Shown piece after piece: positions 53-64,000 of a DNA stretch of 64,000 bases. Every line of letters begins with the position of its first letter. The stretch's first letter is position 1. Both the position numbers and the translations under genes were made by a program. The notes under the pieces were generated by a model that saw only the letters and a list, made by a program, of their open reading frames with translations, had not been told where the DNA came from and did not search any database. The DNA is from Tetradesmus obliquus (Eukaryota > Chlorophyta > Chlorophyceae > Sphaeropleales > Scenedesmaceae), in contig CP126204.1 of NCBI GenBank assembly GCA_030272155.1, positions 1,231,501 to 1,295,500 on the forward strand, written 5' to 3'.

Positions 53-2811
53 GCAGCATCATCGCCCGCGCAGAGCTCTTCTTCCCAGCAGCTACGCACA
101 CGTACGCAGAGGCAGCAGCATATGCGTTTGCAGCACAGCAGGCACCCGGCAGCCTGGTCAGCGCTGCCTTTCAGCAGATGTATGGACCTGTGGTGGCCAG
201 CACAGCAGAGCTCACTGCCAGGCTGAAAGGTGAGCTGCAGCAGAAAAACACTTGTTTGCACATGCTTTGCTATCTATACGCATGTTGCCGGGAGGTTTTT
301 ATGCAGCACCGGTGTCGGCTAGAGACGCCTAGTGCCATGAGATAATAATTATGATTCAGCAGCTGCTGCTCTGCTGGCAGCGCTGGATGCCTGTCCTGCA
401 AGCACTGTGTGTGCACCTTGCATCAGTTGCTTGCTGCAACCATAGACGGGACCTACTGGTCCATGATCACCAGCTTCAGTGTTGTGAGTCGTCTCGCTGC
501 ATTTCCATGCCCATCGCCTCATGCCTTTCAGTGCACTGGCTTCACCTCCAACATTCCCGCCTCCACCCAGCCAGAATCCAATCCGCAGCGGCAGGGCTTG
601 ATCATTCATGTGTGCCCTGTGTTGCTCTGCTTTCATCTGCTCTGCTCACTATGGTGCTGCTGCAGACGGCAGCCAGGCTCCTCCGCCTCCACCCAGCAAT
701 CAGCAGCAGCAGGGCCTGTCCCCTGCTGGCATCAGGGGCCTGGTTGCAGCCATCTTCATAACACTGGGCCTTGCAGGAGCAGCAGCAGCTTATCTGTGGC
801 ATCGCCGCAGGCGCAGCAGAGGAGAGGGGTACCAGCAGTACCCAGCTGCTGGCGGTTACTTTGACCGGATGTTTGACCGCCTCAGCTGGTGGGGAGCAGG
901 CGGCAGGTTCAGCTGGAATGATGCGCTGCCGTGGCAGTGGGGTGCTGCTGCACGGCAGCGAAGGTACCAGCAGCAGGTGAGACACAAGCGTGTCGCAAGG
1001 GGTTATTGTCAGGGGCCTGATTGCAGGCATCCTGATAGCGCTAGGGCTTGCAGGAACAGCAGCAGGCTACCTCTGGTACCGCAGTAGGCACAGCACGGGG
1101 GAGGATTACGAGCAGTATGCAGCAGGTGGTTACTTTGACCGGATGTTTGACCGCCTCAGCTGGTGGGGAGGTTCAGGCGGGAGGTTCAGCTGGAGTGATG
1201 CGCTGCCGTGGCAGTGGGGTGCTGCTGCCCGGCAGCGGAGGTACCAGCAGCAGGTGAGACACAAGCGTGTTGCAACGGCTGGTGTGTGGAAGCTGGGACA
1301 ATTTGGGTTTGCTCCAGCTATGCAAGTATGAAGGCGCAAACGAATGTAACACCAGCTGTACAGCTGTGCAGTAGTGCTGCGGTTGGGCAAGTACAGTAAG
1401 GTACAAGGAAGAAACGTTTACTGCAACTTTGCTTGTAGGAGGAGCTGCGGCGTCAAGCTGAGCTGTTGCACAGCGCTGGGATATTGCTACTCTGCTGCTG
1501 CACTTTTTGTGTAAACCTGCTGCTGCGTCGATGCTTTTCTGCTTGCAGGACGAGATGCGGGGCCAGGGTGAGCTGCTGCATGTGGTTCCTTCCTCAGTCA
1601 TGACGTAAAATATACCTCAATGCACTGTATTGCTCTTGCGCTTGCAGGAGGAGTTGCGGCGCCAGGATGAGCTGCTGCACAGCAAGCCGCTCAGCCGCAT
1701 GCCCCGCCTGGTGCAGGGCAGCCTGGCAGGGCTGAGGGAGTCCTCTGCAGGCATGAGGGGATCACTGGCTGGCTCAGCAGGCGGCGGCAGCAGCAGCGGC
1801 GGCGGCGGAAGCCCCAGCAAGCACCGGCCCAAGCAGTACAGCAGCAGGGTGGAATCTAGGGAAGGGCGGCAGCATGTAAGAGGAGGTGGTGGGGTAGATG
1901 CTGCTGCAGAGCAGGGTAGGCGGGGCAGCAGCAGGAGAGGTGCGGAAGGCAGCAGCAGGGAGCGGTGGCAGCTTCAACAGCAGCAGCAGTACTTGCAGGA
2001 AGAGGAGGCGATGCAGCAGTACTATGAAGAGGAGCCGTGGCAGCAGCAGCAGCAGCGGCATGGCCGGTCAGGCCGTCAAATGGCTGCTGCAGCACCTGCC
2101 GGTCAAGGCAGCAGACGTGGCGCAGCAGCAGCAGCAGCAGCAGTAGATGAGGAAGGAGTGGAGCTTCAGGGGCTTGAGTATGGCTATGAGGCCAAGCAGG
2201 ACTACGCACCTAGCAGACGCCAGGGCACCCGGCGGCAGCAGCAGCAGCAGCTGGCAGCTGCTAGAGGCGGCAGCAGCAGAGCAGCATATGCTGAGAGTCA
2301 CAGACATGGGTATATTGAGGATGAGCTGGCGAAGGCAGAGCCAGACTATAGCTATGGTGAAGACGAAGAGGGGTCGGGGCAGCTGCAGCAGCAGCAGCAG
2401 CAGCAGCAGGAGCAGCAGCAGCAAGGCTATGCCATCTACAGCAGCAGGGCAGGTGACTATGCAGCTGAGCAAGAAGAGGAGGGGCAAGGGTATGAGCAAG
2501 ATCAGGCCTATGCTGCTGCTGCTGGAGGTCAGTGGCGAAGCTGGCTGGCACCACACGGGCAGCAGCAGCAGCAGCGGCGGCCTCACAGCACGTCGCCAGC
2601 CGGCTCAGGCCCAAGACGACGCAGCAGGCCCAGGACATCAGTGCCTAATGCTGCTGGTGCTGCTGTAGTTGATCCTTGGGATGCAACCTGGTGGCCTGAG
2701 GAGCAGGCAGCAGCAGCAGCAGGGGCAGGAGGCAGGAGGGGTGCCTCGGGTAGCAGGCTGCCGCGCACTGAAGCAGATCTGCAAGGCAGCCTCGTTGAGG
2801 ATGACTGCTAG
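53..2811 (+). CDS. Single-pass membrane protein with Ser/Gln-rich cytoplasmic tail (5' end missing)
   Basis: The gene starts left of the window. Visible coding exons are about 53-229 (ends AELTARLK before GTGAGC), an uncertain exon near 360-480, 666-976 and 1648-2811 (stop TAG). Exon 666-976 encodes a Pro/Gln linker, one hydrophobic helix (GLVAAIFITLGLAGAAAAYLW, shown here as a motif), a basic stop-transfer stretch (HRRRRSR) and a Trp-rich segment with FDRMFDRLSWWG and ALPWQWG. The last exon begins EELRRQDELLH and runs into about 380 residues of low-complexity Ser, Gln, Gly, Arg and acidic sequence. The helix followed by basic residues suggests a type I protein with a long disordered cytosolic tail. 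I do not recognise the family. Exons are duplicated inside the gene (separate entries), so alternative forms are possible. The joins upstream of 666 are unresolved. Confidence 0.6.
730..1275 (+). repeat. Tandem duplication of transmembrane exon plus donor site
   Basis: Bases 730-1000 and 1004-1275 are two diverged copies, offset 274, of the exon part encoding the membrane helix and the Trp-rich FDRMFDRLSWW segment. Both end in the same 5' splice site (CAGCAG/GTGAGACACAAGC). The second copy has TTATTGTCAG before it, which could serve as its own acceptor. Both are open in the same frame, so they could be alternative or mutually exclusive exons. Confidence 0.85.
1430..1690 (+). repeat. Three copies of a 3' splice site plus exon start
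   Basis: Acceptor-like CTTGTAG or CTTGCAG is followed at 1439, 1549 and 1648 by related sequence encoding EELRRQAELLH, DEMRGQGELLH and EELRRQDELLH. Only the copy at 1648 continues into the long terminal exon. The two upstream copies have diverged. Confidence 0.8.
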
Positions 2812-2989
2812 CATGCAGCTCTGGGTGACCGCAAGGCATGCTGCGTTTGTTATTGTTGGAAACTGCTGGCCGCCAGCATGTACCGCCTAGCATGCTGCAG
2901 CTCACTTGCAGTAGTGGACGCCGGCTGGATGGCAGGGTGCCAGCATGCTACTTCTAGCCATGTTAGTACGCATTATGTTGCATTGTGCT

Positions 2990-2994
2990 TGTAA
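2990..2994 (+). promoter_or_regulatory. TGTAA poly(A) signal
   Basis: TGTAA is the usual green-algal polyadenylation signal. It lies about 180 bases after the stop of the membrane-protein gene, a typical distance. Confidence 0.45.
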
Positions 2995-3243
2995 TGCATG
3001 ACCTGCATGCACGTTGTAACTCTTGATTGTAGACTCTACATTATCAAGCTGATAAACGGTGCACAGGACTAGAGCCTGAGACGAGATTCTGTCCTGAAGA
3101 TGCATTGTATATGAATTGTATATGTTGTACGTGAATTCTAGAGTACCTATCAACAGCTCTCTGCTGCTGAGCCGCGACATCCGTTACGCCCTGTACAGGG
3201 ACTTTACATTTAAGGCCTTGGTAAATGGTTGCTACAAGCACGT

Positions 3244-3248
3244 TTACA
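3244..3248 (-). promoter_or_regulatory. TGTAA poly(A) signal, C2CD3-like gene
   Basis: TTACA on the plus strand reads TGTAA on minus, about 130 bases downstream of the C2CD3-like stop codon. This is a plausible cleavage signal. Confidence 0.35.
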
Positions 3249-6300: not shown

Positions 6301-8131
6301 AATGCATTTTGACAGCATCAAATACCTGCTGCTGGGGGAGACGAGAGCAAGAACAGCTTGGCACTGTGCTGGTCCTGCAGAAGGCAGCTTGAGGCTGCTG
6401 TTGGAAATGCCAAATCAGAGCAGAACGTTGCAAAGCAACGAAACACTGCCTCACTTACCTCTGGCCAGGCAACAAGACACTCTCATGGCATGCAGCGGGA
6501 ACCCCAACCCAACTCCCAAGCCCTAAGCCCTAGTACTGCAAAAGAACAGTACAGCACGTCTTGCCTCCTCACCCACCTCTAGGTTTGCGCGCAGCGTAGC
6601 CAGCAGCTGGTCAGCATCACCGCTCAGGCCCTGCTCATCATCCAGCACAGCAGCGCCTGCGCTGCCCCACAGCGCCAGTCCTGCAAGCAGCCCATCATGC
6701 TGCAGCAGCACATCACCAGCAGCAGCATGTGCCGCCGCCGCAGCAGCATCTGCCGCGGCCGTAGTAGCAGCTGCCGTGTCGGCGCCAGTGCTGCCCCACG
6801 GCGGCAATCCTGCAAGCAGCCCATCATCCTGCAGCTGGCTGTCACCAGCAGCAGCATCCGCACTCGGCGCCTGCAGCTCTGCTGCCGCAACATCGCTCGC
6901 TACGCCACTGCTGCTGCTGATTGCGTCGCTGCCTGGCAACAGCGCCAGTCCTGCAGGCAGCCCACCATCCTGCAGCTGGCCTTCACCAGCAGCAGCAGCT
7001 GTAGCAGCTGTAGCAGCAGCACGTGGCGCCCGCAGCTCCGCTGCCGCGTTGGCGCTTGCCGTATCTGCGCAGGTGCTGGTGGCGTCGCTGCTTGGTTGCG
7101 GGCGTGCTGCCGACGGCTGCTGCTGCTGCTGCCCTGGTCCTGTGAGCTGCAAAGGAGCAGCGCCGAACTCCAATGCTGCTGTTGCATGTGGGGCGTCCAG
7201 CTGCTTCAGAGGTGTCACGCTGACCTGCAGGCCCAAAGGAGCACAGCGCAGCACAGGCCAGCACGTGTATAACATGAGTTGGGCTGCACAGCAGAGAGGT
7301 CAGGTAAGCAAAGTATACATGCGCTCCGCCAAAGACGAAAGCAGGTGCCGCCTGAAAGCCGCTGGAGGAAATGTGGCCTCGATTTGATGCATGCGCAGCC
7401 GCATCATGACTGGAGTAGCTGCCGACCTTGATCTGGCCACGTGGCCGGTCTGCTACATCAGCCACATTGTACCAGCCCTCGATGCTGCCCAGCACATGCA
7501 ATGCAGCCATGTCCAGTGCGGTCAGGCTGATACATAACTTCACATGTGGTGTGCGCTGCATGCAGGGCCGCATGGCTGTGCCACTGCAACAGCTGTCGGA
7601 AGCGCTGATAACTCGAAGAAAACCGCCACAATGTGGGACGCACAGCCAGCCTTTTTCGTGACGAAAATCACCTACCTTGATCTGTCCACGTGGCCTGTCT
7701 GCTGCATCAGCCACGTTGTACCAGCCCTCAATGCTGCCCAGCACATGCAGCGCAGCCATGTCCAGCGCAGCACAACCCAGCAGCTGGTCGGAGGCGGCGC
7801 AGGGCACAGCAGCAGCACCAGCATAAAGCGGCGGCAGCACGGCAGCAGCAGCGGCAGGCAGCGGCCGCAGCCACACCTGCGGCACGATATGCAGTGCAGG
7901 CAAACACCCACAGTGTGTTACAAGAAATCATGTGACAGGTGTGTTGCATCATGTGCAGGCAATGTAGATGTTGGTGCAGCATATGTGCATGTTGGAGCAC
8001 CCGCAGCAGCAACACATGTGCAGGGCCAGCCGGCCATGCATGGAATAATGTGCACCGCTTCAAGCCTACCTGAAGCAGCAGCTCTGACGGCGGCTGTGCA
8101 GCAGAGACTTCTGCAGCCGCCTCAGCGCCAA

Positions 8132-8172
<41 letters not shown>

Positions 8173-11100
8173 GTTGCAAGTGGCAGGTGCATGCAGTGAA
8201 ACCACTTGACTGAGGCAGACTGCCCCAGGGGCCCGCAGGACGCTGCCACCAGTGGGGTGCTGATGGTAGCGCCAGTCTCATGCCATTTGTAGGTGACATA
8301 CAGGCACGGCTGCCAGCCTGCAGCAGCAGCAGCAGTGCAACCAAGCGGCACTATCAAGTCGGTCTAAATGCAAAAGTGACGCATGAAGGTGCAACAGCCA
8401 CCAAGGGGTGCTGATGGTGGTGCCAGTCTCATGCCAAATGAAGCAGACATACAGGCACGGCTGCCAGCCTGTAGCGCAGCAGCAGCAGCAGGGCAAACAT
8501 GCGGCGCTTCAACAAGTCAGTATGAAAGCAAAAGTGATGCATGAAGATGCAAGAGCCACCAGGGGGGTGCTGATGGTGGCGCCAGTCTCATGCCACTTGT
8601 AGGAGGTGTACAGGCACGGCTGCCAGCCTGTAGTAGGCAGCAGCAGGGCAAACATGCGGCACTGCAAGCAATCAGTACGGAAGCGGAAGTGATGCATGAA
8701 GATGCAAGAGCCACCAGGGGGGTGCTGCTGGTGGTCCCAGTCTCATGCCATTTGTAGGAGGTATACAGGCACGGATGCCAGCCTGTGGCAGCAGCAGGGC
8801 AGGCGTGAAGCGCAACAGGCCGATCAGTCCAGATATTAGCTCGAACTGCAGGAACCATCAACTATAACATTGCCCTGCGCAGGCATACGCATTGCGGCAG
8901 CTGCAGGGGAAGCAGCAGGTACAAATGCGGTCCTGACAGTTGACATATTCGCGCAGTTGATTGCACCCCAACACCTCAGCAGCGGCATACATCTTAGCAT
9001 GGCTATGCTCACCATCTGCAAGCATTGGCAGCTGCAGGTTGAGTGCTCCCTCCACACACACGCGCACATCAGCCAGGGCTACTGCCAGCGGCTGCTGCTG
9101 CTGCTGCTCTTCCTGGTACACCACAACCTGCTGCTGCTGCTGCTGCTGCTGCTCTTCCTGGTACACCACAACCTGCTGCTGCTGCTGCTGGGGCTCTTGC
9201 TGCAGCACCGCCAGCTGCATCAGCTCGCTTTGTTTGCCTAGATCTGCAGGCTGCTGGAGCTGCTGCTGCTCCCGTTGCTGCAGTCCATCTGCTGCAGGGC
9301 TGCTGGAGCGTGCTGCGGCTGGGGCAGTGGCATGGGAAACCTCAGCGCGCAGTCTGCTGCTGCTGCGCTTGTGCGTCGGCCGCATCACTTCAACATCAGC
9401 TGCTGCTGCTGCTGCTGCTGCTGCTGGGGCCGTGACATGCTGCTCTGTGCTGGGGGCCTGCATGTCTTCCGTGCCAGCAACTGCTACAGCAACATCATCT
9501 GATGTGCTACTGGTGCTGTGAAGTTCCTCATCAACGTGCTGGTCTTGTGGCTCCCGCTGCAGCTGCTGCAGCAGCTCTGCTGCTGCCACTGCTGCTGCAA
9601 GGTCTGGCTCCGCATCTTCACCCACAGCACTGCTGCCCTCAAAAGCAGGTGCACCCTCATCTATGCTTGGTGCACTGCCAGCAGCAGCATCCGCTGCTGC
9701 TGCGATACCTGCTGCAACTGTAGCCTCTCTAGCTGCAGTAGCTTCACAGACATCAGCACTCCCAGCAGCAGCAGCAGCAGCAGCGCCTGCTGGTGGTGGC
9801 AGTGCAGCCAGGGGCCCGCTGACCTGCCAGTGAGCCACAGGATCAGCCAGCAGCTGCTGACCTGGCAGCTCCGCAGGCTGCAGGTCAAGCAGCACTTTGA
9901 CTTTGACCCTGGTGTTGCCCAGGTTCTTGCACATGGGGTGCACCACTGCAAACGTGCCACTGAGCCAGCGGCAGTGCGGCCTTGCTGAGTCAGCAGCAGC
10001 AGCAGCAGCAGGCCGCGGCAGCAGCAGCGGCGACAGGTCCACCTCTACTGCACCAACAGGCACTGCTGCTGCTGCTGCTGCTGCTGCTGTAGGGCCTTGC
10101 GGATCACCCCTGCTGCCGCCGCCGCTGCTACTGCTGCGGCGGCTGGGCTCGAATTTGGTGATTGACAGCAGCAGCGGGTAGGCTTGCAGCGCACGAGCCA
10201 GGCGCCAGTCTGCTGCTGCCCAGTGCTGGCCGCAGAAGTGCCAGCCGACTGCCCAGCTGCGGGCCAGCAGGCTGGAGTGCTGCTGGCTGGTGGGGGCCTT
10301 GCTGTGGGTGCGGCTCTCAGCTTGGGCACCTGCGGTTTGAAATGCGTTATTGTTAGGACGTGTTGACTATCCCAAAACAGGCAGCCGGGCCAGCAGGATG
10401 GAGTGCTGCGGGCTGGTTGGGGCCTTGCTGTGGCTGCGGCTCTCAGCTTGGGCACCTGTGGGGTAGAAATGCAAGTGCAACGGTAATAGTTGGCACGTGT
10501 TTTGAGGAGCAGGCTGGAGTGCTGCTGGCTGGTTCGGTGCAACAGTGACAGTTGGCACGCGTTTGAGTTGCAGGCTAGAGTGCTGCTGGCTGGTTGGGGC
10601 TTTGCTGTGGCTGCGGCTCTCAGCCTGGGCACCTGCGGGGTAGAAATGCAAGTGCAACGGTATGAGTTGGTACATCTTTGAGTTCAGGCTGGAGTGCTGC
10701 TGGCTGGCGGGTGCCCTGCTGTGGGTGCGGCTCTCAGCCTGGGCACCTGCGGGGTAGAAATGCAAGCGTAATGGTAACAGTTGGCATTTGTTTGAGATGC
10801 AGGCTAGAGTGCTGCTGGCTGGTGGGGGCCTTGCTATGAGTGCGGCTCTCAGCCTGGGCACCTGCAAGGTGGAAAGCGTCATTGTTAGGACGTGTTGACT
10901 CAATCCAAAAACAGGCAGTCGGGCCAGCAGGCTAGAGTGCTGCTGGCTGGTGGGTGCCTTGCTGTGGCTGCGTCTCTCAGCTTGGGCACCTGCGGTTTGA
11001 ACAGCGTAATTGTCAGGACGTGTTGCCTATTCAAAATCAGGCAGCTGGGCCAGCAGGCTGGAGTGCTGGCTGGCGAGTGCCTTGCTGTGGGTGCGGCTCT

Positions 11101-14100
11101 CAGCCTGGGCACCTGCGCATTGGCAAGCTGGTGCAACAGTGACAGTTGTCATATGTTCAAGCTGCAGGCTGGAGTGCTGCTGGCTGGCGGGCGCCTTGCT
11201 GTGGGTGCGGCTCTCTGCTTGGGCACCTGCAGGGTGGAAAGCCGGTGTAACAGTTGGCGTGTGCCGGTGACCGATAGCATGTATCAGGAGGCATCAAATC
11301 AGGCGATACAGCATCACCAGCGGTGACGACTGATAGCACATATGCTGTGCGATGCAAGAGCTGTTGTAAGCGCAGAAGCAGTGTCCACAAGCGGCTCACC
11401 TGGCAGCCTGCACGCAGCAACATAATAAATGAACCACGGGCGCTCCAGCAGCATACCTATGCTGCAGCAGGCCCTAACAAGGACGTCAAACAGCGCAGGA
11501 GCAGCACACATATGCTGCAGTGCGCGTTGTTGATGATGATTCCAACACAGCACAAATGTGTGGCCGCACCTGGCAGCCTGTATGCAGCCACATAGTTCGC
11601 AATCCGTGGCCGCTCCAGCAGCACATCATTACCCCCAGGCAGCAGCAGCTCCTCAACATGCACAGACAGCAAGCAGGCTCCCAAACAATACTGCAAAACA
11701 CTTGCCTCACCTGGCAGCCTGTATGCAGCAACGTAGTTGGCAATCCGTGGCCGCTCCAGCAGCACATCATCACCCCCAGGCAGCAGCAGCTCCTCAACAT
11801 GCGCAGACAGCTGAGAGCCACTGAAATAAACATCTAGCTCACCTGGCAACCGGCTTAAGTTGGAACCTGCCGGAGCGGCCCAGCAGCACACCTCTGCTGC
11901 ACTACGCATTATCTGATTAATCTAACACTGTACAAATGTGTGGCCGCACCTGGCAGGCGGTATGCAGCAACGTAGTTTGCAATCCTGGGTCGCTCCAGCA
12001 GCACATCATCGCCCCCAGGCAGCAGCAGCTCCGCAACATGCACAGACAGCCGCGCCAGCTGGCCAGCAAAGCCCTCGGGCGGGGACGCCAGCAGAGGAGT
12101 AAGCGTGGGTGCCGCGGCTGGCAGGGCGGTTGCAAGCAGCTGCAGCAGCTGAGGGTGCCTGCAGGATGGTGAGGGGTGGCAGCGCAAGCCAGTGAGGAGA
12201 TGGTTGCAGTTATGGCACACGTGATAGTTTGCAGCAGGGTTTGCAGCAGCTGTAGTAAAGCCACAGTGGCCAGTTGCTGGGGTGGCAGCGCAAGACAACG
12301 AGGAATTCAGGTTGCAGTCAAGGCACCAGGTGCCTGTCGCTGAGTTTGGAGCAGCTACAGTGCAGCCAGGCACTTGCAAACTGTGTTTGGCCTCGCTGTG
12401 CGTCACTGCTGCCACTGCTGCCACTGCTGTTGTTTCAAATCAGCGGCTCACTTGTTCAAGGGGCAGTCTGCAGCAGGGCATGTGTCGGTTGGTGTGCCCC
12501 CGATGTGTGTGAACTGCAGCGCCACCTGCACCGCCCCGACTGGCTGCCCCAGCTGCGACTTGAGCACCAGCCAGCTGCGGATGCCCTGCGCAAACAAACA
12601 TATAATCCATCAAAATGCGGCCACAGCAGAGCACAGCATGCTTGGTGCAGCTGCCACATCAGATACAGACAAGCGGCCACAGCAGATCATGGTCGGTGAG
12701 GGTAGAGTCGCTGGCCAAATCCAAATCCAGTTGATAGCTAATGGAACAGGTGTTGCCAAATGAGCCTGTCATTGGCTCAAAAACGGGCTGTGTTCCCGTC
12801 GTGTAACACACACATTGTGAGGCCAGTGCTCCAGGCAGCTACGGAAGGCATCCTCAATTTTAGACCAGCCACAGCTGACAAGAGGGGCAGCATGAACAGC
12901 AGAGCACAGCACATGTTTGGTGCAGCAACCACAGCAGCAGAGCACAGCACGGCTGGTGAGGCCAGTAAGGACATCAGGCAGCTGCAACCGCAGGGCCCAT
13001 GCACAGCTGGCATGAGTGACGCTGCATCAGCACACACTGGACACGTTCTTAGAGTGTGCTAGATGAGCGGCGAATGCAAATTGCAACCAACAGCATCAAC
13101 CACACACAAACATCCAGACCGAGTCATGCCATTCGCGCACCTGCGGCCGTGTAAGCAGTGCCTGCAGCGGGCAGCTGCCACTTCCCAGCAGCACCTGCTG
13201 CTGCCCTGCCATCACATAGCTGCTGGAGTGCCCCCTGCTGAGTGCTGCCGCCACTGCCTGCGACCTGGGGCAGTGGTGCCATAGCTGCACGCTGCACTCA
13301 GCTGATGCCAGTGCAGCAAGGCTGCGGCCTGTGAGGGTGAGGGGCAGCAGCTGCTTGTGGTGAAACTGCGGGCAGAAGGTCTGGGCCTGCGCGCATGGTG
13401 CGGCAGCAGTGCAGAGTGTGTTACAGGGAGTGAACAGCAGTGTTTTCAGGCAAGCAGCTGCTACTCCAACACATAATGTTGGTGTCCAGGTGCGCCTGTA
13501 GTCCCTTGTGACGTGGGCAGTGGTGCCACAGCTGCACGCTGCACTCAGCTGAGGCCAGTGCAGCAAGGCTGGGGCCTGTGAGGGTGAGGGGCAGCAGCTG
13601 CTTGTGGTGGAATTGCGGGCAGAGCGTCTGGGCCTGCTAGTGAATGCGGCAGCAGCGGTACACATGAGCAGGGGGGGCATCAGCAGTGTTTGAGACATGT
13701 GGTGGAAGCGTGGGCAGAAGGTCTAGGCCTGCGCATATGGGTGTGGCAGCAGCAGGCACTGAAAACGTGAGTGAAATGGGGGGCAGACGTGAGGAGAGAC
13801 TGCAGAACAAGTGTGAGGGGCAGCAGCTGCCTGTGGTGGAACTGCGGGCAGAAGGCCTGGGCCTGCGGGTGGATGCGGCAGCAACAGGGGGATGTTTTTT
13901 TGCGGAGAAGTGATGTGAGGAGGGGAAGCAGTGTGGAGCTGCTGCCAACAGACAGTCCAGGGCAGTTGCGCGCAGGTAAATTGCAAATTGCGAACTTCCA
14001 CAGTGCGTATTCTACCAGATGAAGGCTTCTTATGCAGCTCAAGCAACAGCACTGCTCACACCAGCCGCCACAGCAACATGCCACCCACCTGAAAGGGCGT

Positions 14101-14271: not shown

Positions 14272-14307
<36 letters not shown>

Positions 14308-16406
14308 CCAACACCAGCACATGTCACACATGGGTGAGGCGAAGAAGCATTCTCAGCCAGCAGCACCAGAGCATGTCAGATCCTGAGACAGCTCCCAGAG
14401 GTGCAGCAGCAGCCTGGGCACAGCAATGCAGTGCATGCGGCACACAGCACAAAGCCATGTACAGCTTCAACAAAATGGGCAAGCAGTACTGGCCGCCCAA
14501 GGCAGCTATCAGGTTGCGTCTAACACTGCTACACCGCTGCACACATGCCAGAAGAGCGCCGACTGCAACCAGCCACACTCGCAACTTGACACACCATGTG
14601 CTAAGCTAGCAAACCATGCTGTGAAGCCAGCAGGCTCACCTGCAAGCCACACGCTCTGATGACCTCGACGCACAGCGCTGCTTGCATTGGCTGCGGCTCA
14701 GCTGCTGCAGCTGCTGCTGCTGGCACAGCCTGCTTTGCTGCAGCTGCTGCTGCTGGCACAGCCTGCTTTGCTGCAGCAGGCAGTGCTTGGTCAGAGGGAG
14801 CAGCACCAGGAGCACCAGCAGACTTTGACGCTGCCAGGGAGCTGGGATGAACGGCAGCAACCAGATCCTTCAGCTCACTGTTATCAGCTTCACTGCTGCT
14901 GCTGCTGCTGGCGCTGTCTCTTCTATAGGGAGAGGTGTCGCCGCCACCAGCAGCAGAGGGGTCAGCATCACCGCCTTCTGCAGGCTCATGCTGCTGGTCT
15001 GCTGCAGCACCAGCAATGCGATGCACTTCTGTATCATGATCTGGTCCAAAATGCCGCTGCTGCTGTGGCTGCAGCTCCTCTGCTTGCTCCTCCTCCTCCT
15101 GCTGCTGCTGGTGCTGCTGCTGCTCTTCCTCCTGATTCTGCACCTCATCGTCATCATCATCATCATCTTCATCCAAGCTGTAGCAGTTCTCGGCACAGTA
15201 GCTTACGGTGACCTGCAGCAGCACTGCCGTGCCCTGCTGCTGCACTGCTGCCTCGGCTGATCCTGGCTGCAGCTGCAGTGGCACCAGGAAGGTGTGGCTG
15301 GCTGGCCCAGCTTCTGCTGTGGCTGGGTGGTGCACCTGACTGAGCTGCACGACTTGCTGCAGCTGCAGCACGCCAGCAGCGATCAGGCTGTCACTGTCAT
15401 CTTGCCACTTGTTGTACACCTGGCATAGAAGCGGAGATGACATGCAGTTTGCAGAGATGCAGTGTGAGCAGCAAGCTGAAATTAAGCGCTAATGGCGGGT
15501 AACAGTGAGAGTGTTCTAGGCACAGTGTCTGTTAGTAACAGGCACCATGATGGTGTGGCTGGCAGGCCCTGCTTCTGCTGTGGCTGGGTGGTGCACCTGG
15601 CTGAGCGCTAGCACTTGCTGCAGCGGCAGCACGCCAGCGGCGATCAGGCTGTCGCTGTCATCTTGCCACTTGTTGTACACCTGGCATAAAAGCGAAGGTA
15701 ACAGGCAGTTTGCAGGGATGCAGTGTGAGCAGCACAGCTGAGCTCAGGAGCGCGTGCCGGAAGGGAGTAGGCGGCTGCTTGGGAAAATCAGTCAGCACCG
15801 CCACAGCAGCATTGCTGCTGAGCCCCTCATCATGCAGCAGGCCTGAAGATATCACACAGGCAGCTGGTACTTATAGCAGCGCACTGCAGCACTCAGCCTT
15901 GCGACTGTGTTTACACAGGCTTTACTGCCAAACCAGTCGCCTGCTGCTATGATCAGCCTGCCTGCTCACCTCAAAGCCCAGCTGCTGGTCTGCTGCTGCG
16001 CCGCTGCCATCATCAGCCAGGCAGTCTGCCAGGGACTGCCCAGGCGGCAGCAGCGCGGTGTGCTGCTGTCACCAAACCGGCTGACTCCTTGCACAGGTAG
16101 CTGCTGTTGCTAGCCCACCCAGCTCACCTCAAATTTCAGCTGCAGGCTACACATTGCAACAGTCGTCAGTTGTGCTGCTGTCATCAGATTGGCTAAACTT
16201 TTTGATCAGCCCATCAGCGATGCTCACCCCAAAGCCAAGCTGCTGCTCTGCTGCTGCGCCGCTGCCATCATCAGCCAGGCAGTCTGCCAGGGACTGCCCA
16301 GGCGGCAGCAGCACCGTGTGCTGCGCGTGCGCAGAGAACTCAGGGCGAGCTATCAGCTGCACCTCCTGAGTGAACAGTGGCTCCTCGCCTGCAGCAGCAG
16401 CAGCAG

Positions 16407-33314: not shown

Positions 33315-33652
33315 CTAGTGGCGTGGTGCCATGGGCTCGTACTTTTCGTCCTGGCCGTAGTTGGCTGCGTAGGCGGGCGTGTACTGCAGCCGCTGCGACT
33401 GGGCAACTGCCATGCCTGCACAAGTGCCATCCACCCTGCACACGCGAGGAGTCCCAGAAAGTTTTGCCCATGCCCACAACTCATCAGTCACAGGCCTCCA
33501 GCTTGACCGAGTTAAAGAGCACAATACAGTATGGTGTACGGGCTTCCAGTGTACGATGAGACACTTAGTGGCGTGGCGCCATGGGCTCGTACTTTTCGTC
33601 CTGGCCGTAGTTGGCTGCGTAGGCGGGCGTGTACTGCAGCCGCTGCGACTCA
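33315..33652 (-). repeat. Copy of the WBP2 terminal exon end, including stop codon
   Basis: Bases 33565-33652, the last 29 codons (ESQRLQYTPAYAANYGQDEK...), are repeated at 33315-33404, offset 249, with very few changes. The copy encodes the same peptide end and terminates in TAG instead of TAA. It has no acceptor of its own and lies in the presumed 3' UTR. Confidence 0.93.
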
Positions 33653-37348: not shown

Positions 37349-39906
37349 GGCAGGGTTCATGCCCTACACCAAGATCGCGCCTGAGCGGCTGCGTGCCGGC
37401 CACAAGGGAGACCTCAGCTACCTCATGGGCAAGAAGGTCAAGGCGCGCATCGTGCAGGTGAGGCAAAAGTAACAACTTACGTAACATGTTGGTAACACAT
37501 GCTGGAACAACAACGTGTGGACGTTGCGCTGGTGATCGCAGCAAGTGTACGTAATGGTGCCGTCGGAGCCTATGCTCTGCGCTGGCTTGCAGTATTAGCC
37601 TGCAGCATTGATATGTGCATGCCCTGCTGCGTCATTTGCTGCAGCTGAGCCATGGCTGCATCTTAACAACAAGCACTATTTGCGACATATGAACATTGCG
37701 ATCTCGTCTGTCGCATCAACTTTGCCTGCAGGTGGACAAGGACAGTGCGCGCAAGGAGCTGGTGCTGAGTGAGCGGCAAGCGCAGCTGACTGAGGCGGTG
37801 CTGCGCTTCCAAGTGGGGCAGGTGGTGCGGGCGCAGGTGAGCTGTAGGTTGGCTGCAGCTTGGTATTGGACACACTAAACGAGCAGCATAAGCATTAATG
37901 CTGTTACATGTATGGACACGCCATGACAGTGGGGCAGGTAGTGTGTGCGCAGGTGCGTTCGGCTGTGCTGCAGCGCAGTGTCAAAGTGAATAGCACGCGA
38001 CCGCATTCTGTCACATAACGGGGGGCTTCCCAGCGGGGCAGATGGTGCGGGCGAAACTGCAGTATTCTGCAGTGCTGCAGGTAGCTAGGGCTGGCCGGCT
38101 GGGGTGTTAGTGCCACAGCAGGCAGCATGAGGTAGCATTGTGTTGCACGGCGTAGCACTTCTCAGCACGACACATATCATGCCATGCAGAGCAACACAAT
38201 GATAAGTAATCGTAATGAATTGCTTGTCATGCATGCTGCAGGTGCTGCGGCTGGAGGACTATGGCGCGCTGCTGAGCATCTAACAACATCCGGGGTTTGA
38301 CAGCGCAACCCCACGTGAGGCCTTATAACATGCGTGCTGCAATGCTCTGCAGGTGCTGCGGCTGGAGGACTATGGCGCGTTGCTGAGCATCTACGACGGC
38401 AGCGGCAAGCCCTCAGGGGTGCAGGGCCTGCTGCACAAGAGCGAGCTGAGCTGGGACCTGGTCATGACCGTGGACGACATCGTGAAAGCAGGTGCGCGGC
38501 TGGAGGCTGAGGTGTAACCGTGTTGTAATAAATGACATTTGCTTGTCATTCCTTCCTGCAATATGTCGTGACCATGAAGCTTTCCTCCGTTTGTTTTCTA
38601 TTGAAGGAGCTGTGGTTGCAATGTCAAGTTGAGCTGACTGCAATTGTGGCAGTGTGCTCAAAGCAGGTGCTGTTACTGCTGCCTTCATGCTGCTGACTTG
38701 CTGCGGCTGCTGCAGCAGCCAAGAGGTTGACGTGAAGGTGGTGTCATTTGGCGTGTCTCGCTGCCGCGTGTCGCTGTCGCTGAAGCAATGGCACCTGTTT
38801 TCAACATGCTGCTGCCGCTGCTGCTGCTGCTGCTGCAGGCCAAGAGGTTGACGTTAAGGTCGTCAGTGTCGATGTCTCTCGTTGCCGCGTGTCGCTGTCG
38901 CTGAAGCAGATGCAGCGCGACCCGCTGCAGACGACGCTGGACAGCATCCAGTGGGGAGAGACGACGCTGGCGCTGCCTGAGGTCAAGCAGATCATACAGG
39001 TGGGCAAGTGCATGCACAACTTTCGTAAGTTCTGTATGTTCTGTTGATGGCTTGCAGCTGACTGGGCGTGTGGGCTAGACAACGCTGGCGCTGCCAGAGG
39101 TCAAGCAGATCATACAGGTGGGTGGTGGCGGCAGTGTAAGAATCAGCGTTTGCAAGTTGCTTCACCGATGTCGAGCACGCCGGCATGGCTGCTGCGATGG
39201 TGCGAGACGATGCTGGCGTTGCCAGAGGTGAAGCAGATCATACAGCTGCGGCTTTGCTGCATTGGGCAGCTGCATGCTTGGGAGCATTCGCAAGTTGAAC
39301 CATGCTGGGAGTGAATGTCTGGCTGATGTAGAGTGGGCTGGCATCTGCAAATCATGTTGCTGTAATTATAACACCTAATGCAACCATGCATGCGTCTTGC
39401 TTGTGGCTGCAGGTGCTGGAGTGGACACCGGGCATCAAGCGGGTAGACATCGGGCGGCAAGCAGAGGAAGCACACACCGTCTCACAGGTTGGTGTTGCAC
39501 CCTCGGGGTGGGCAGCCACATGCACCCAGCACATGCATACATTCTTGCAAGGCATGATATTAATTGCACACAAGCATGCAACGAAGCACATCACGGTATA
39601 ACTGAAGTGTCGCATGTCATACTGTTGCGTCCTGCGTCGCCTGCGGCATGGATCTGTACCTTACGAAGCTGACTGTGTTTCATGTCACTTGATATCTGAA
39701 GTGTTGTGTCTGTCCTCTGGCGCACTGCTGCTGCATGCTCTCAGGACGTGGAGCTGTACCTGACCAAGCAGAGCCGCGAGGGCGGCTTTGCGCTGGTGGC
39801 AAGGGTGGGGCGCGTGCTGCAGGAGCTGCTTGTTGACACGGGCCTCAGCAAGGACGACATGAAGAAGGCGCTCACGCGCGTGCTGAGTCGAGTCGGACGG
39901 AGCTGA
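36006..39906 (+). CDS. Plastid-targeted protein with two S1 RNA-binding domains, 332 aa
   Basis: Nine exons: 36006-36088, 36169-36223, 36596-36710, 37354-37457, 37732-37836, 38353-38491, 38839-38999, 39413-39487, 39745-39906 (999 nt). The first ~46 residues (MLQQLHHSIALSHGMRSVQV, then SSRHIVAASKAAAAPSS) are basic, Ser/Ala-rich and free of acidic residues, like a chloroplast transit peptide. S1 domain 1 runs from LLQGTVSEGTIVGYNKGGVL through KGFMPYTKIAP to KELVLSERQ. S1 domain 2 runs from FQVGQVVRAQVLRLEDYGAL through GLLHKSELSW to CRVSLSLKQ. A C-terminal region (TTLALPEVKQIIQ...KDDMKKALTRVLSRVG) is helical and charged. Two S1 domains, a transit peptide and this tail resemble plant plastid S1 proteins such as SRRP1. 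A role in chloroplast RNA binding or translation is inferred. TGTAA lies at 40101. Four exons have partial copies in neighbouring introns. Confidence 0.85.
37274..37346 (+). repeat. (CTG)24 microsatellite forming the 3' end of an intron
   Basis: About 24 uninterrupted CTG units end 7 bases before the acceptor (CCGGCAG) of S1-gene exon 4. The run occupies the position of the polypyrimidine tract. Its length probably varies between strains. Confidence 0.9.
37810..38062 (+). repeat. Copies of the S1-gene exon 5 end
   Basis: The exon end encoding VGQVVRAQ plus its donor (37810-37845) is echoed at 37925-37955 (GTGGGGCAGGTAGTGTGTGC) and at 38029-38062 (GCGGGGCAGATGGTGCGGGC). Both lie in the following intron. 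Confidence 0.7.
38230..38394 (+). repeat. Duplicated start of S1-gene exon 6
   Basis: Acceptor plus VLRLEDYGALLSI occurs at 38230-38283 and again at 38341-38394, offset 111. The upstream copy diverges into a TAA stop directly after the repeat. Confidence 0.9.
38710..38906 (+). repeat. Duplicated start of S1-gene exon 7
   Basis: The segment encoding QEVDVKVVSxxVSRCRVSLS occurs at 38719-38786 and 38839-38906, offset 120. Both are preceded by a CTG-rich acceptor. The downstream copy is the one that fits the phase. Confidence 0.9.
38955..39247 (+). repeat. Three copies of the S1-gene exon 7 end
   Basis: The segment encoding TLALPEVKQIIQ occurs at 38955-39001 (true exon end), 39078-39123 and 39206-39247. 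The spacing is about 123-128. The second copy keeps the GTGGGTG donor; the third reads CAGCTGCGG at that point. Confidence 0.88.
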
Positions 39907-53359: not shown

Positions 53360-53381
53360 TGCATGGCTGGTGCACCTGCAG

Positions 53382-57349: not shown

Positions 57350-58688
57350 TGCACCACCTGCATCATACGACTGACCTTTGAATGGACACCGCGCTGGTGG
57401 GTTTGGTGCTGCACTGTGCTGCTGTTCCTTGTGCTGCGGTTGGAGTGACGACTGTTTGCGTGGCACAACTGGTGCATGCAGCAGCGACTGGCAGTGCACA
57501 TTGCCAGGGCATCAGCGAAAGCCGACGGAAAGCCTTACTACACTGGCAACAGCTGCAACAGCTCGTTCGGCAGCTGTGTTGTCTGGTGCATGGCTTGTTA
57601 CAAGTATGTAGTTTTCGCCCGACAAAGTGCCCTGCTGATGAAGCTTGTGTCTGATGCCCGCCAGCTTGTGGAGTTTGGTACGTGGATACATAGTGTGCAT
57701 TCACTGTCTTTGGAGGTCTGTCTGGTTTTGTACTGCGTGGATATCAACTTACATGCCCTTCACCGGCAGCACTACCTAGAAACATCGAGGCAAGCACATT
57801 GTGACCAGCACTGATACCCGGTAAGGCTTACCTTTTTCAGCAAAGCAGCAAGCGCATTGGGCAGGCATGTTGCGTGGTGGCTGCTTATTTGTTATGCATT
57901 GTTTCGCCCCACAGAATTGCGCTGGGTGATCGCAGGTTGCAGCCTTGTCTGGCAGGGCTGCTTAAATGTTGCCACAGCATATGCATCTCACAGAAACCCA
58001 GTGTGGTTTTAGATTAGCTTATATTGACACAGAACTCTACACCGCTGGATTGTTTGGGAACTCTTTATCTTTGGCAGTTCTTGGCATGAGCAACGTGGTA
58101 TGATCTGATGCGAACCTGTACATTAGTCGCCAGCTGGCAGGAGTAGTTGTGCTGACCTCTTGCTGCTGACATGCAGCGGTTGCCGTGGTGTGGCCCAGCT
58201 GGAGAATGTAGTGCACAATTGTTGCAACAATTACAAAACTATTACAGGTATTGCTGCTTAGCTCGAGGGCATCGTTTATTGCCTGAAGGGTGTGGGTATG
58301 TAGCTGGCAGTGGTGCTTGCCAAGCACTGGGCTCACTACTGCTCGTAGAATTGCTTGCACTAGGCCATCTACAGATCGTAGCCTGCATGCTGAAAGACAC
58401 CAACCTTTCATGTGTGTTGAAGGCCAGCTCGCCAGCGCAGCAGTGAAGGCCAACACCTTCTATTGTCAGGCCTGCTGACAGAGGGGGCCGATCGCATGTT
58501 ACAGTGTCAGACACTTGACTGCACAACCCCAAACCATGAGGCCTGATACCAATGTGGCAAATCATGACACACGTACAGCAAGATTGCAGAAGACTAAGTA
58601 TACCAACCCACAACATAGAACATAGTTCCGCGCACACAGCATCAGACAAGCGATTGCATCCAGCCACATGCAGCCTGGCATCTACTAA
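57350..58688. other. Convergent intergenic region
   Basis: This separates the 272-aa gene (plus) from the WDR89-like gene (minus). No gene recognised. TTACA at 58499-58503 reads TGTAA on minus and might be the WDR89 poly(A) signal; if so, the duplicated terminal exon at 58689-58900 lies in its 3' UTR. Confidence 0.4.
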
Positions 58689-58905
58689 TACGGCGAGCGC
58701 CGCAAATTGCCATTATGTGCGTGCTGCTCCTGCCGCCTGCTGGGCCTCGCTGAGTCTTCCGAGATGGACGGCACAGCTGCTGCTGCCACCGCCGCCTGAT
58801 CCAGCGTCCACAGTGCTAGCTGCGCATCCTCACCCGCCGACACACACAGCAGCCGCTGCGCTGCCCCGTCAAAGCAAAACAGTGTATACAGATTCAGCGG
58901 CAGTA
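58689..58905 (-). repeat. Copy of the WDR89 terminal exon end, including a stop
   Basis: This repeats 58947-59115, offset 258. It encodes AQRLLCVSAGEDAQLALWTL and HAHNGNLRRSPY with its own TAG, against TGA in the parent. It lies downstream of the real stop and has no clear acceptor. Confidence 0.92.
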
Positions 58906-58942
58906 CACCGCCCACATCCAGCGTACCGCAGCCTGGCGTCCG

Positions 58943-61324
58943 TCAGTACGGCGAGCGCCGCAAGTTGCCGTTATGCGCATGCTGCTGCTGCCGCCTGCTG
59001 GGCCCTGCCGAGTCTTCCGAACTTGACGGTGCTGCTGCTGCTGCCAGATCCAGTGTCCACAGTGCCAGCTGTGCATCCTCACCCGCTGATACACACAGCA
59101 GCCGCTGCTCTGCTGTGCCAGCAAAGCAATCCACAGACCGCACCACATCCCTGTGGCAGCCGTTGAGTACAACTGCAGGCTGCTGCAGTAGATTGCCGCC
59201 TGGTGGTATCTGCCCTGCCCTGTGCTGCTGCTCTGCGATAGGGAAGAACGCTGCTGCGCCGCCGTTGGTGCCTGCTACCAGCAGCAGCTGCCCGCTGCTG
59301 CTGTCCCAGTGGCACCCTACTAAGTAGTCCACCTGCAGCAGTGGCAATTCAGGCAGCACAGCAGAGTCGTACATCAGCTTTGAATTACAGCAACATCAAC
59401 GATGATGACACACGCAGCACGGGGCAACACAGCGGATTCCTGCCAGCAAGTGCTGACGCGCTTGAGCTATCAGCATTGCCGCGCACACTGCTTGCCTGCT
59501 GGGCTGCGCCCCAGTCTAACCCCGCCAGAAAGCTTTATGGCTGCCGATAGTAGTCTCTCACATACCTCGCCAAACAGGGCAGCAGCGCTGCTGGCCCCTG
59601 CAGCTGCAGCGGCCATGCCCCGCGCCTCTGCCAGGTCAGCCACTGCAGTCGCCCACCTGCACCACAGCGCTGCCCGCACTGCCATATAAGCCCAGCTGCT
59701 CTACTGAGGAGCCCCCGTTGAGGCTGCGCAGCACTTGAGCTAACCAGCATTGCAGACACTGCCTGCCAGCTGGGCTGTATGCCAGTCTGAACATACCAAC
59801 AGGCAACACATCTGCCTATAGCAGACCCTCACGCACCTCGCCAAACAGGGCAGCAGCGCTGCTGGCCCCTGCAGCAGCAGCAGCCATCTGCCTCGCCTCT
59901 GCCAGGTCAGCCACCGCAGTGTCACCACCAGCAGCATCCTCCTGCGTGGCTGCCAGCCAGTCCCACAGCTGCAGCGTCTCAGTGCCCGTCCTGTCGCATG
60001 CGAAGGACAGCAGGTGATGTACAATGGGGCGTCAACGGCAGAAAAGGAGGTGTGGTTGCGGTAGACGGTGCCACAACAGCCCCTGAGTGTACGTTTGAAG
60101 GTGCAAGATGCCGCATTGGCCTTGCAGGCAATCCCTTGAACCATAGACGTGCAGGGTTCACGTTCAACACGTGAGCCCATCTAGCTGCTCGGCCTGCTAC
60201 TTGCGCACATGATTTCTGCCAGAAACAGGGGTAATCAAGCGCTATGACATGCTCTGACGCTGTCTGTCCTGCACCCAACTACTTCAAGACTCTGCATGCC
60301 ATCCACCAGCGCCGCCCACCTGCACCACATGTGCTGCCCGCCGCTGCCATACAAGCCTAGCTGCTCCACTGAGGTGCCCACATTCAGCGCAGCAATGAAG
60401 CCGTCGTCCTGGCTGAGGCCCCCTGACAGCTCATGCACAGCCACCAGGCCATCCTGCGAAGCTGTGATAAGCTTGCTGCTGGCTGCGTGGAACAGCACCT
60501 GCACAGTGGAAAATGTGTTTGTTGGCAGCTTTTGAGATACAGGGGTTTGTATGTGCAATGCAGGGCTGTGTGGTACGCAAGGAAGCAGTGCGCTGCATGC
60601 AATGTACGACAGGGCGAGGAGGGTGCTTGTGAGCTTGTCCAGCCGCTGCACCAGCAGGCTTGCTGCCGCATGTTTCAGCAACCACGCATATCATGCTGTT
60701 TTTGCCTGTGGGTGGATGGGCATAGGAGTAAGCTTGTCTGGCGGCTGCACCAGCAGGCTTGCTGCTGCTTTGACACGCACATGCATGCTTCAGCTACCTT
60801 ACATATCCTTGCTGCAGAACGCACAGCTGCCAGCCGCCCCACCTGCGTGACGTCATCCATGTGCATGTCATCAAAGGAGGCCAGTCGCTGCTGCGTGCGC
60901 CTGTCCCAGAAGTGCACGTCGCCCTGGCCGCCTGCTGCTACTAGGTTGTCGCTGACGCTAAAGGCATACAGCTCCTGGTGGTGCGCCTGGTAGCTGCGTG
61001 TCACAAATAGGAAGCCAAGGAGACAGGAAATGCAGGTGATTATGAATACGTCAGAAGGCAGAGTGACTTACTTGCAGGATGTTGAAGGATGACAGAGCAG
61101 CAGCCAGCATGACGCTGAAGGTTGCAAAAGCAGCCCTTGCATGCTGCCACATTCATGCAGGTGAATGCAGGGGCGTGCTCAAGCTGTGGGTATCTTGCCA
61201 TGAACACCCGTTCGGGTACAATGGCAGCAAGCACCACTGCGTTGTTTGCAGGGATGGGCACGTCAAGGCGTGGGACCTTCGCAGCAGCAGCTGGCTGAGG
61301 CTGGCACATCAGATGACACACCCA

Positions 61325-62291: not shown

Positions 62292-64000
62292 ATGGCATGT
62301 GATCAGTGCACAGCACCGACAGATTCTAGCTTGCCAGGGACAGGAGCCAGCTCAGGAGCTCAAGGATGTCGCAAGGAAAGCGTGCTCAATCAGGTACGTG
62401 ACAGCAGCAGCAACAGCAGACTATTCCTGCAAGCTGCCTTGTCAGCAAGGACAGGACAGCCCAGGCTGTACCGCTGTACAGCCGAACTGCATCAACATGC
62501 GCACCAGCAGAGTATCAAGTGAATCTGTTGCTCTAGCTGCAGGCCGAGCAGCGGGAAAACCCTCCATGACTTACTGGAGTGTTGACAAGTGGGGCATGCC
62601 TGCAAGCCAGCTTAGCAGGTGGGAAGCAATGTGTGACAGCGTGCTGCCACCACCACACGAGCTGCATAGCAGCAATGCAGCACAGAGAATCTGCTGCTTG
62701 CAGGACAGCACAGATAGGCTTGCGCTGCAGCTGCTGCAGCTGTGTCCTGCAGGGTACTGTGGTGATGCAGCAGCTCACTGCACCAGGCTGCATTTGTAGC
62801 GGCTTTTACAGCAGCTGAGCTGTGATTGACTGCTGTGGTAATGTGCTGCTGCAGTGGTGGTCGCCAGCCAGGGAGCTTGCAGGAGCCTTCAGTCGAGGTG
62901 CTGGATGGGCTGAATGGTGAGCAGCAGCACATGTCGCGGCGGTGCAGTGCTGCTTCAGCACAAGCAACAGCAGAAGCAGCAGCACCAGCAGCACATGCAA
63001 GCTGCATCAGCAGCTGCAGTGTGCTTGCATCTCACAGGGCAGCACGGAGGCTGATGGGTACATGCGGAGGTTGCAGTGGAACAGCAGTTGCAGTGCTGGT
63101 GTTGGACATGTGCAGCAGCAGCAGTGGCAGAGCATGCACACAACATCATCACCTGCAGTTTGCTTGCACTGCGCAACGAGCGCAATGCACGGCGTATACC
63201 ATATTTCCATCATGCAGCATGGATGCATCAGCAGCCACAGAAACTTGAGCAACCTCATGTCACTGCTTGCAATTGCCGTTGCTTGCATCCCTTCCTGCCC
63301 TTTGCCTGGCCCGGAGCAGACCTTGAGCAGCGCATGCGCGCCACACTGGGGGCACTGGCCAGCTTCAACGAGGATGAGCGCATGCTGCTGCTGAGGTGCA
63401 CAAACTCTTCTCAGCAGAGGGCGCTCACCAGCCATGCATGTGGCAATGCGCTGTTGTGTCCAGCGCAGCCTGCATTGGCTCAATATAGCAGGGCCAGGAT
63501 GAGCAAATGCTGCTGCTGAGGTGCACCAGATGCTCAGCAGAGAGGCGCACCAGCCATGCCTGTTGCGTCCAGCGCAGCCTGCACTGGCTCAGCCGTATTC
63601 GCCTGCAGGGCCAGTGGCAGTGTGGACAGTGCTGTGCATGCTGTTGTTGAGCAGAAGCTCTTCAGGAGCAGACTAGCAGCAGTAGCAGTTGCAAGGCTGA
63701 TTGTATAGTTGTCCAGCAGCTAGACCGGGCAGCATAACACAACTCTCGCTCAATATGGTTGGGCACAGCAGCGTGGTGTTGTTACATATGAGGCCCTGGC
63801 TGCTTTTGCTGTCACAAGCCGGTTGAATCCCCATGCGCAATACGCTTCATCACATGCATGTGTGTTTGCAGGCAGTGCCGGCGTGAGGAGGCAGCAGCAG
63901 CGCAGCAGGGCCGCGCAGGCCCGCCTGGCCTGCTCACCACGCAGCAGCTGCGGCACGTGTGGCGCAGCCTGGGCTTGAAGATCAGCAGCGCAGCAGGGCC
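62292..64000 (+). CDS. 5' part of an unidentified gene running off the window
   Basis: Probable exons are 62292-62393 (MACDQCTAPTDSSLPGTG...SVLNQ before GTACGTG), one near 62870-62918 (LQEPSVEVLDGLNG before GTGAGC), one near 63318-63396 (LEQRMRATLGALASFNEDER then MLLLR before GTGCAC), and one from about 63872 to the end (QCRREEAAAAQQGRAG...LLTTQQLRHVWRSLGL). A region at 62545-62610 (KPSMTYWSVDKWGMPAS) may be another. Joins and start are not proven. The helical, charged segments resemble a coiled-coil or EF-hand-like protein; I cannot name it. Confidence 0.45.
63371..63600 (+). repeat. Duplicated exon end plus intron start
   Basis: Bases 63371-63489 (exon end MLLLR, GTGCAC donor and the following intron) are copied at 63496-63600, offset 125, with moderate divergence. 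This is the same kind of junction-spanning copy as elsewhere in the window. Confidence 0.85.

Follow-up and report, generated by a model that had tools for sequence, protein, structure and literature searches.

Short-range partial copies of exons in and around genes of Tetradesmus obliquus

In a 64,000-nucleotide stretch of the green alga Tetradesmus obliquus (contig CP126204.1, contig 14, positions 1,231,501-1,295,500; hereafter the window), roughly half of the predicted genes carry short, somewhat decayed partial copies of their own exons, mostly in the adjacent intron and in some cases beyond the stop codon. These copies are real, their observation in a preliminary description of the window is confirmed, and similar ones occur at many other places in the genome. 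The explanation we favour, and hold to be somewhat probable, is frequent short-range tandem duplication of units of about 100-300 bp in and around genes, filtered by selection.

About 340 kb of the 104.7-Mb genome (17 contigs) were examined: the window, 25 loci of 10 kb and nine smaller loci, some of them overlapping. Twenty of the 10-kb loci, with all 17 contigs represented, were sampled alongside the window, and five more (50 kb) were chosen as a held-out set after the block criteria and the gene finder had been fixed. Match counts refer to 254 kb, that is the window and 19 loci, with L001 and the satellite locus L017 excluded. Gene training and gene-model counts exclude L004, L017 and L018; leaving out L004 and L018, both of which have no direct match, slightly raises the block density. 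The GC content of the window is 57%, the value listed for the species in the accessible text of PMC5966456, and the sequence is rich in CAG.

Codon-usage scoring of the blocks alone assigned frames unreliably, and gene models were hence built with a hidden Markov gene finder, with GT-AG introns fixed and self-trained on the sequence. Its consensus was CAG/GTG(A/C)G for donors and TGCAG/G for acceptors (the slash marks the exon border). Exon-intron calls outside one gene, the S1-domain gene described below, are predictions of this gene finder, which sometimes takes a copy for an exon.

Direct copies at short range

Self-BLAST of the window with low-complexity filtering recovered 17 of the 18 loci at which copies had been listed, although some extents differ (58657-58864 with 58915-59113, against 58689-58905 as listed). 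At the 18th locus, 37810-38062, the copies are about 25-30 nt long and fall below the reach of BLAST; they scored 21 and 17, compared with a maximum of 13 among 2000 shuffles each. The copies at individual loci are as follows.

666..1278, + strand: exon from about 666 whose 3' half, 732-1001 (donor CAG/GTGAGA at 976), is copied at 1009-1278 (offset 277; 85% identity over 273 columns); both are called exon, and the first is presumably the real one.
1430..1683, + strand: exon start at 1648 (1631-1683) with upstream acceptor-type copies at 1430-1474 and 1532-1580 (self-BLAST, gene model); the gene model also takes 1549-1581, within the second copy, as exon.
7422..7768, - strand: exon end 7671-7768 (donor 7676) with a donor-type copy at 7422-7519 (offset 249, 91% identity); the flanks are unrelated and both copies are called exon.
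8245..8833, - strand: exon start (boundary 8317) with three upstream acceptor-type tandem copies (offset about 152).
10260..11242, - strand: exon start (boundary 10329) with seven acceptor-type tandem copies, an array of eight.
11395..12050, - strand: exon end (donor 11950) with downstream copies at 11704-11811, 11563-11670 and 11397-11453 (self-BLAST, gene model).
13268..13888, - strand: exon start (boundary 13365) with upstream copies at 13515-13691, 13698-13756 and 13810-13888 (self-BLAST, gene model).
15280..15760, - strand: exon start (boundary 15419) with a copy at 15541-15760 that includes about 79 nt of intron (self-BLAST, gene model).
15963..16324, - strand: exon end 16221-16324 (donor 16228) with a copy at 15963-16066 (95% identity); the edge lies 7 nt beyond the junction and both copies are called exon.
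33316..33650, - strand: end of a last coding exon, 33566-33650 (stop TAA), with a copy beyond it at 33316-33400 (stop TAG), 84/85 identical, a 165-bp unrelated spacer and a block end within the stop codon; the gene model splices into the copy, and 33566-33650 is probably the real one.
34083..34305, - strand: exon start (boundary 34120) with two upstream copies (self-BLAST, gene model).
37425..39906, + strand: S1-domain gene, spliced model that skips all copies (full S1 domain).
37811..38057, + strand: exon end of the S1-domain gene (donor 37837) with short copies near 37930 and 38033 (shuffle test).
38236..38393, + strand: exon start 38347-38393 with an upstream copy at 38236-38282 that runs into TAA (self-BLAST).
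38686..38908, + strand: exon start 38805-38908 with an upstream copy at 38686-38787 (self-BLAST).
38952..39248, + strand: exon end 38952-39002 with downstream copies at 39072-39122 and 39198-39248 (self-BLAST).
58657..59113, - strand: last exon of a WD40-repeat gene, presumably 58915-59113 (TGA), with a copy at 58657-58864 (TAG).
59458..60379, - strand: exon ends of the WD40-repeat gene with their copies, 59731-59936 with 59458-59664 and 60313-60379 with 59650-59714 (self-BLAST).
63371..63591, + strand: exon end (donor 63395) with a downstream copy at 63496-63566 (self-BLAST, gene model).

In the last exon of the WD40-repeat gene, both copies reach their different stops after the same residues, and one of the three phases accounts for 18 of the 31 mismatches.

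Across the 254 kb, matches within 1 kb of each other numbered 200 in direct and 4 in inverted orientation. No direct match arose in any of the eleven dinucleotide shuffles made in 500-bp windows (one, then ten). The held-out 50 kb gave 63 direct and 0 inverted matches, forming 18 blocks. The non-redundant set of the main sample contains 89 blocks in 234 kb scored, about 1 per 2.6 kb. Depending on the locus, short-range repeats covered between 0 and 59% of the sequence in the twenty loci, the highest value being that of the satellite locus L017, and three of the twenty (L004, L008 and L018) had no direct match.

Two peaks dominate the offsets: 49 of the 89 blocks lie at 75-175 bp and 17 at 225-275 bp (66/89 together), compared with 7 at 175-225 bp. 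In 30 of 87 blocks the copies are contiguous, with a length of at least 0.8 of the offset. Perfect tandems also occur, such as that at L019 2627-2959 (196 columns at 100%, offset 137). Together, the almost exclusively direct orientation, the preferred offsets and the few perfect tandems support the proposal that a short-range duplication process is still running. Several window blocks with larger offsets have no intermediate copy. Another perfect tandem, at L003 1060-1179 (offset 54 bp), is one of the few copies inside a predicted exon.

Chance and simple CAG repeats were ruled out as the source by an entropy filter and the shuffles. An origin from a mobile element or a paralogue was likewise rejected, since the spacers share no family and the two regions tested occur only once in the genome if CAG tracts are disregarded. 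A comparison of 27 spacers with the window and the twenty loci gave only triplet-repeat-like matches, local copies and a few matches of 24-31 nt; against the whole genome, 33300-33760 and 38150-39420 matched only themselves and CAG tracts.

That most genes carry such copies, as first described, is too strong: they occur in 6 of the 12 window gene models of more than 100 residues, or about half. No block was found by the filtered window self-BLAST at 18.9-33.3 kb or 39.3-58.6 kb, and the models at 20457-28579 (21 exons), 30300-31072, 35219-36838, 46229-48698 and 56353-57349 are free of copies. The model at 40756-43742 has only a low-complexity repeat within its coding sequence (40780/40891). 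One copy-bearing model, that of 28 exons at 3375-19730, may combine two or more genes.

The blocks are not spread evenly over gene structure. The check proposed for the junction claim was run against 2000 random placements of the blocks: 71 of 89 touch both exon and non-coding sequence, compared with 49.6 expected. Exon-internal blocks, with both copies in exons, are depleted (5/89, 10.3 expected), as are purely non-coding ones (13/89, 29.2 expected). Both copies are intergenic in 4 pairs, compared with 17.5 expected, and blocks cover 12.0% of predicted intron bases but 3.6% of intergenic bases.

The claim that each copy holds a single junction stands for 28 of the 32 blocks in which it could be judged, namely those of the 89 in which one copy is clearly exonic and the other clearly non-coding (two held none and two more than one). 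It does not hold for several longer blocks, which span at least two predicted junctions; some of these are gene-finder errors. Copies were also said to lie on the adjacent non-coding side. This is borne out for 81 of 116 junctions in copies outside the real exon (decoys). In the main and held-out sets combined, 40/56 donor copies are situated downstream of the real donor and 41/60 acceptor copies upstream.

Probable tandem duplication, selection and decay of the copies

Copies that are nearly all direct, present in most sampled loci and rare in predicted intergenic sequence are consistent with frequent tandem duplication. On this account, a copy would be tolerated only if splicing or translation termination keeps using the outer copy. 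A duplicate across a donor would then leave its second copy in the intron, one across an acceptor its first copy in the intron, and one across a stop codon its second copy in the 3' untranslated region, while exon-internal duplicates would be purged. That the decoys lie mostly on the predicted side is expected under selection, which would allow the outer copy alone to go on being used and leave the other in the intron. Constraint on the real exon would also keep exon-containing pairs recognisable for longer. Much of the junction enrichment may thus be explained by selection against exon-internal copies and by slower divergence of exon-containing pairs, except in a subset of copies considered below. 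Given the depletion between genes, selection does not account for everything: duplication seems to be more frequent in gene bodies, or else copies between genes disappear faster.

Among the light-harvesting loci L022-L029, some of which overlap, a local copy of more than 75% identity was seen only in L029; the overlapping L022 and L026 share one 63% match 820 bp apart. This suggests fewer copies than average, and perhaps highly expressed genes do not tolerate them.

If the copies decay neutrally, differences between copy and exon should be synonymous at a rate set by mutation and by constraint on the real exon only. From the mutation spectrum of non-coding pairs, with the real exon constrained, this neutral share is 0.39-0.44 (upper value 0.437). 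Among 54 copies whose partner the model calls non-coding (taken from 67 matches, with each decoy interval counted once), 171 of 416 differences were synonymous (p 0.87 against 0.437). The share was 237/510 in 46 blocks outside the sharp-edged class defined below (p 0.11) and 93/198 in the held-out set (p 0.20). The bulk shares, 0.41-0.47, are thus none of them significantly above 0.437.

Other measures agree with decay. The splice dinucleotide is kept in the copies as GT in 36/56 and AG in 47/60, and lost in the rest. In contiguous pairs, divergence is 0.123 between exon and decoy and 0.188 between spacers (39 partly overlapping matches), near a ratio of 1 to 1.6, which fits constraint on the real exon only. 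Mismatches in 81 blocks show a period of three (214.7 compared with 140.9, sd 14.6; 0/1000 permutations), a signal expected from the constrained exon alone, which does not decide between the readings. To judge from these sequence comparisons, the bulk of the copies looks like neutral debris rather than working alternative exons.

The opposite view is that many copies, the sharp-edged ones at least, function as alternative exon ends that selection maintains for regulated or redundant splicing; we regard it as unlikely. It draws on the retention of GT and AG just given, and 35/56 donor and 39/60 acceptor copies score above the 5th percentile of real sites. To that extent the decoy splice sites proposed at the outset are present, but the bulk of the copies looks neutral. 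Block edges fall on functional boundaries, and stops are preserved in altered form (TAA and TAG in 33566/33316, TGA and TAG in 58915-59113/58657-58864). Indels are scarcer in exon parts (16/5356 columns) than in non-coding parts (47/4537 columns). A synonymous excess in the sharp-edged class and among its clearly non-coding copies, given below, also speaks for this view.

Against it, the overall synonymous share fits neutral decay, GT is lost in 20/56 donor copies and, on visual inspection, a second splice site is usually missing from the inner edge of a copy. Where the introns are unalignable, an exon identity of 86-100% would exceed what coding constraint alone gives at synonymous sites. In the S1-domain gene, the product with all copies skipped matches PF00575 over positions 2-74 of 74 (E 2.4e-15), good evidence that the copies are not needed in that gene's reading frame.

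The flush-edged subset

We defined a high-identity spaced class as blocks of at least 86% identity, shorter than 160 bp and shorter than 0.8 of the offset (29 of the 89). By eye, most of these end sharply, flush with the splice site: donor-type blocks usually 6-8 nt into the intron and acceptor-type blocks usually 3-6 nt before the exon. GT falls 7-9 nt from a block edge eight times in the class, a rate of 0.046 per position compared with 0.004-0.012 in other populated bins.

Several results, most of them from this class, weigh against tandem duplication followed by neutral decay. The 28 high-identity spaced pairs tested lack flank homology (0.107 and 0.119, null 0.100, sd 0.058). Among the 30 pairs that hold at most one junction, 13 extend no more than 9 nt beyond it (Kolmogorov-Smirnov (KS) test against uniform, p 1.5e-4). 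In 24 of the 29 blocks (those that, like the 46 other blocks, had 8 or more in-frame codons), synonymous changes make up 66 of 102 differences (p 1.6e-5 against a neutral share of at most 0.437), more than the 237/510 of the other blocks (Fisher p 0.001). This excess persists in 13 blocks whose copy is clearly non-coding (26/42, p 0.013). When decoys are matched with one another, divergence is lower in the exon-like part (0.104) than in the spacer (0.171; 18 matches), a result which the labelling itself favours. Mismatches cluster in exon parts (51 pairs, p 1.6e-4), as strongly as in non-coding parts (38 pairs, p 1.1e-6). In the held-out set, placement was not significant, with 14/18 blocks touching both exon and non-coding sequence and 10.7 expected (p 0.07).

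Among 11 flush blocks with both copies called exon at 0.35 or above, the synonymous share was 40/60. Two further comparisons were not relied on: the seven decoys of the 10260 array, alike at 0.902 in exon-like parts and 0.600 in spacers, mix two spacer types, and decoy-decoy differences by codon phase (0.086, 0.114, 0.140; p 0.0007) come from overlapping pairs.

At the high exon identity of the flush pairs, plain tandem duplication followed by neutral decay ought to have left an intron part that could still be recognised, and the flush pairs do not fit. The flush subset, with its synonymous excess, is thus unexplained by plain duplication and neutral decay. In the held-out set, 3 of 18 blocks are high-identity spaced, none is flush within 9 nt (L030 9638 extends 14 nt beyond the junction), and their differences are 2 synonymous and 5 other; of the 4 held-out pairs that hold no more than one junction, 2 reach 9 nt or less beyond it. 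Given these numbers, the frequency and nature of the flush class are uncertain.

Four readings remain for the flush subset: that the constrained exon converts its copy, that the copy is itself under constraint, that it derives from a diverged version of the gene, or that copying is bounded by splice sites. Within the duplication account, gene conversion from the real exon to the copy might hold exon parts alike while intron parts drift. Such conversion would make copies end at the splice site, but it does not account for the synonymous excess, which it does not predict; clustered mismatches fit conversion but occur in non-coding parts too. The excess fits constraint or a diverged source, and near-identical exons beside unrelated introns fit neither well.

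A process coupled to splicing or transcription might copy exon ends with 6-8 intron nucleotides, or with 3-6 before the exon start, into the adjacent intron. We think this improbable. It would fit the eight donor GTs at 7-9 nt from the edge among the 29 blocks, the flanks unrelated on both sides in the 28 pairs, the depletion between genes, and the absence of other genomic matches, CAG tracts excepted, to the two tested regions. It is at odds with stop-codon copies that have no splice junction, with contiguous tandem pairs that include intron parts (10260-11242, 15280-15760) and with the held-out set, where none of the three blocks in the class is flush. The edge may merely mark where constraint on the real gene stops, and the synonymous excess is not predicted. 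If such copying were genome-wide, introns would grow by piling up fossil exon ends.

A still less probable source is a diverged version of the same gene, from the other haplotype or a close relative, brought in by unequal exchange or produced by assembly error. The differences in the flush set are allele-like and mostly synonymous, splice sites and stops differ but are intact, and introns are unrelated. Near-identical exons beside unrelated introns (84/85 in 33316/33566; 38/38 in L009 1337/1471) and arrays of eight speak against it. Assembly error should also delete exon ends, and in the S1-domain gene, the sole gene checked, they are intact.

Flush edges are not confined to these copies. The light-harvesting paralogues of L023 and L024 share five pieces of 84-97% identity with nothing alignable between, so flush edges arise between old homologous exons generally; those of neutral copies are still unaccounted for. 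A tandem gene pair in L013 (84% over 524 columns, flanks random) added little.

Relation to known duplications and significance

Short tandem duplications have reportedly been described in rice by Vaughn and Bennetzen in 2014. Our copies share with duplications of this kind a direct orientation, short local units and the absence of an element family, and the contiguous class has the same shape. According to the accessible text of PMC8355091, such duplications arise from repair of staggered or paired-nick DNA breaks. The Tetradesmus copies differ from break-repair duplications in their density (about 1 block per 2.6 kb), in offsets mostly of 75-275 bp, in a strong gene-body bias and in a subset with sharp splice-site edges and an unrelated spacer. 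Whole units abut in the 30 contiguous blocks of 87, but not in the 28 high-identity spaced pairs. We class the copies as a variant form of short tandem duplication that stands out by its density, its bias towards gene bodies and its flush subset.

Intron gain by tandem duplication, as described for the potato RdRp gene in the available part of PMC4974935, also involves a segment that crosses an exon-intron border and carries splice signals. Here no new intron is evident, and the copies are placed within predicted introns or beyond the stop codon. The birth of introns, whether from tandem genomic duplication or from mobile intron-like elements, is disfavoured and very improbable, although duplications across exon borders can create introns in plants according to the same text. 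Donor and acceptor surroundings of the 332 predicted introns match no more than chance (3 at 22/40 or more, 1.5 expected), and no sign of intron gain by duplication was seen; two of the three introns are CAG-like and one lies inside the 10330 array. The 27 spacers and the two regions compared with the whole genome yielded no shared spacer family, whereas introner-like elements would share one across loci.

Mutually exclusive tandem exons of the Dscam type are, in the accessible text of PMC3236188, likewise local direct copies of exon sequence. The copies here are mostly part-exons with one splice site and look neutral in bulk. Among the 32 clear pairs of real exon and decoy, 30 hold at most one junction rather than a complete exon (57 of the 89 blocks could not be judged). 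As to coding constraint on both copies, the bulk is as neutral (171/416) and the flush set lies above neutral and below 0.80 (66/102).

In the openly licensed literature we found no description of such copies in green algae; the accessible parts of PMC7590803, PMC5966456 and PMC12571836 do not mention them.

Other repeats were seen in the sampled sequence. L017 1-6042 holds two satellite arrays with units of about 275 bp (1-3959) and about 340 bp (4115-6042), and L005 1-1146 a tandem array of about six copies of a 191-bp unit (84-91% identity), non-coding in the gene model. At L018 1623-2353 and 5905-6635, perfect 29-bp inverted repeats have starts 702 bp apart; the arrangement is present twice, as of a duplicated element. 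In the window, 50614-50667 and 53309-53363, separated by about 2.7 kb, are inverted copies of each other with 96% identity over 55 columns, possibly the ends of a small transposon.

The mean intron length of T. obliquus is 462 bp, compared with 230-302 bp in four other green algae, as given in the available part of PMC5966456. With copies making up 12% of predicted intron bases, their accumulation could partly explain these long introns. Repeated short duplicates across splice junctions amount to a natural experiment on the choice among near-identical splice sites, on how introns grow and on the sequence from which alternative exons could arise.

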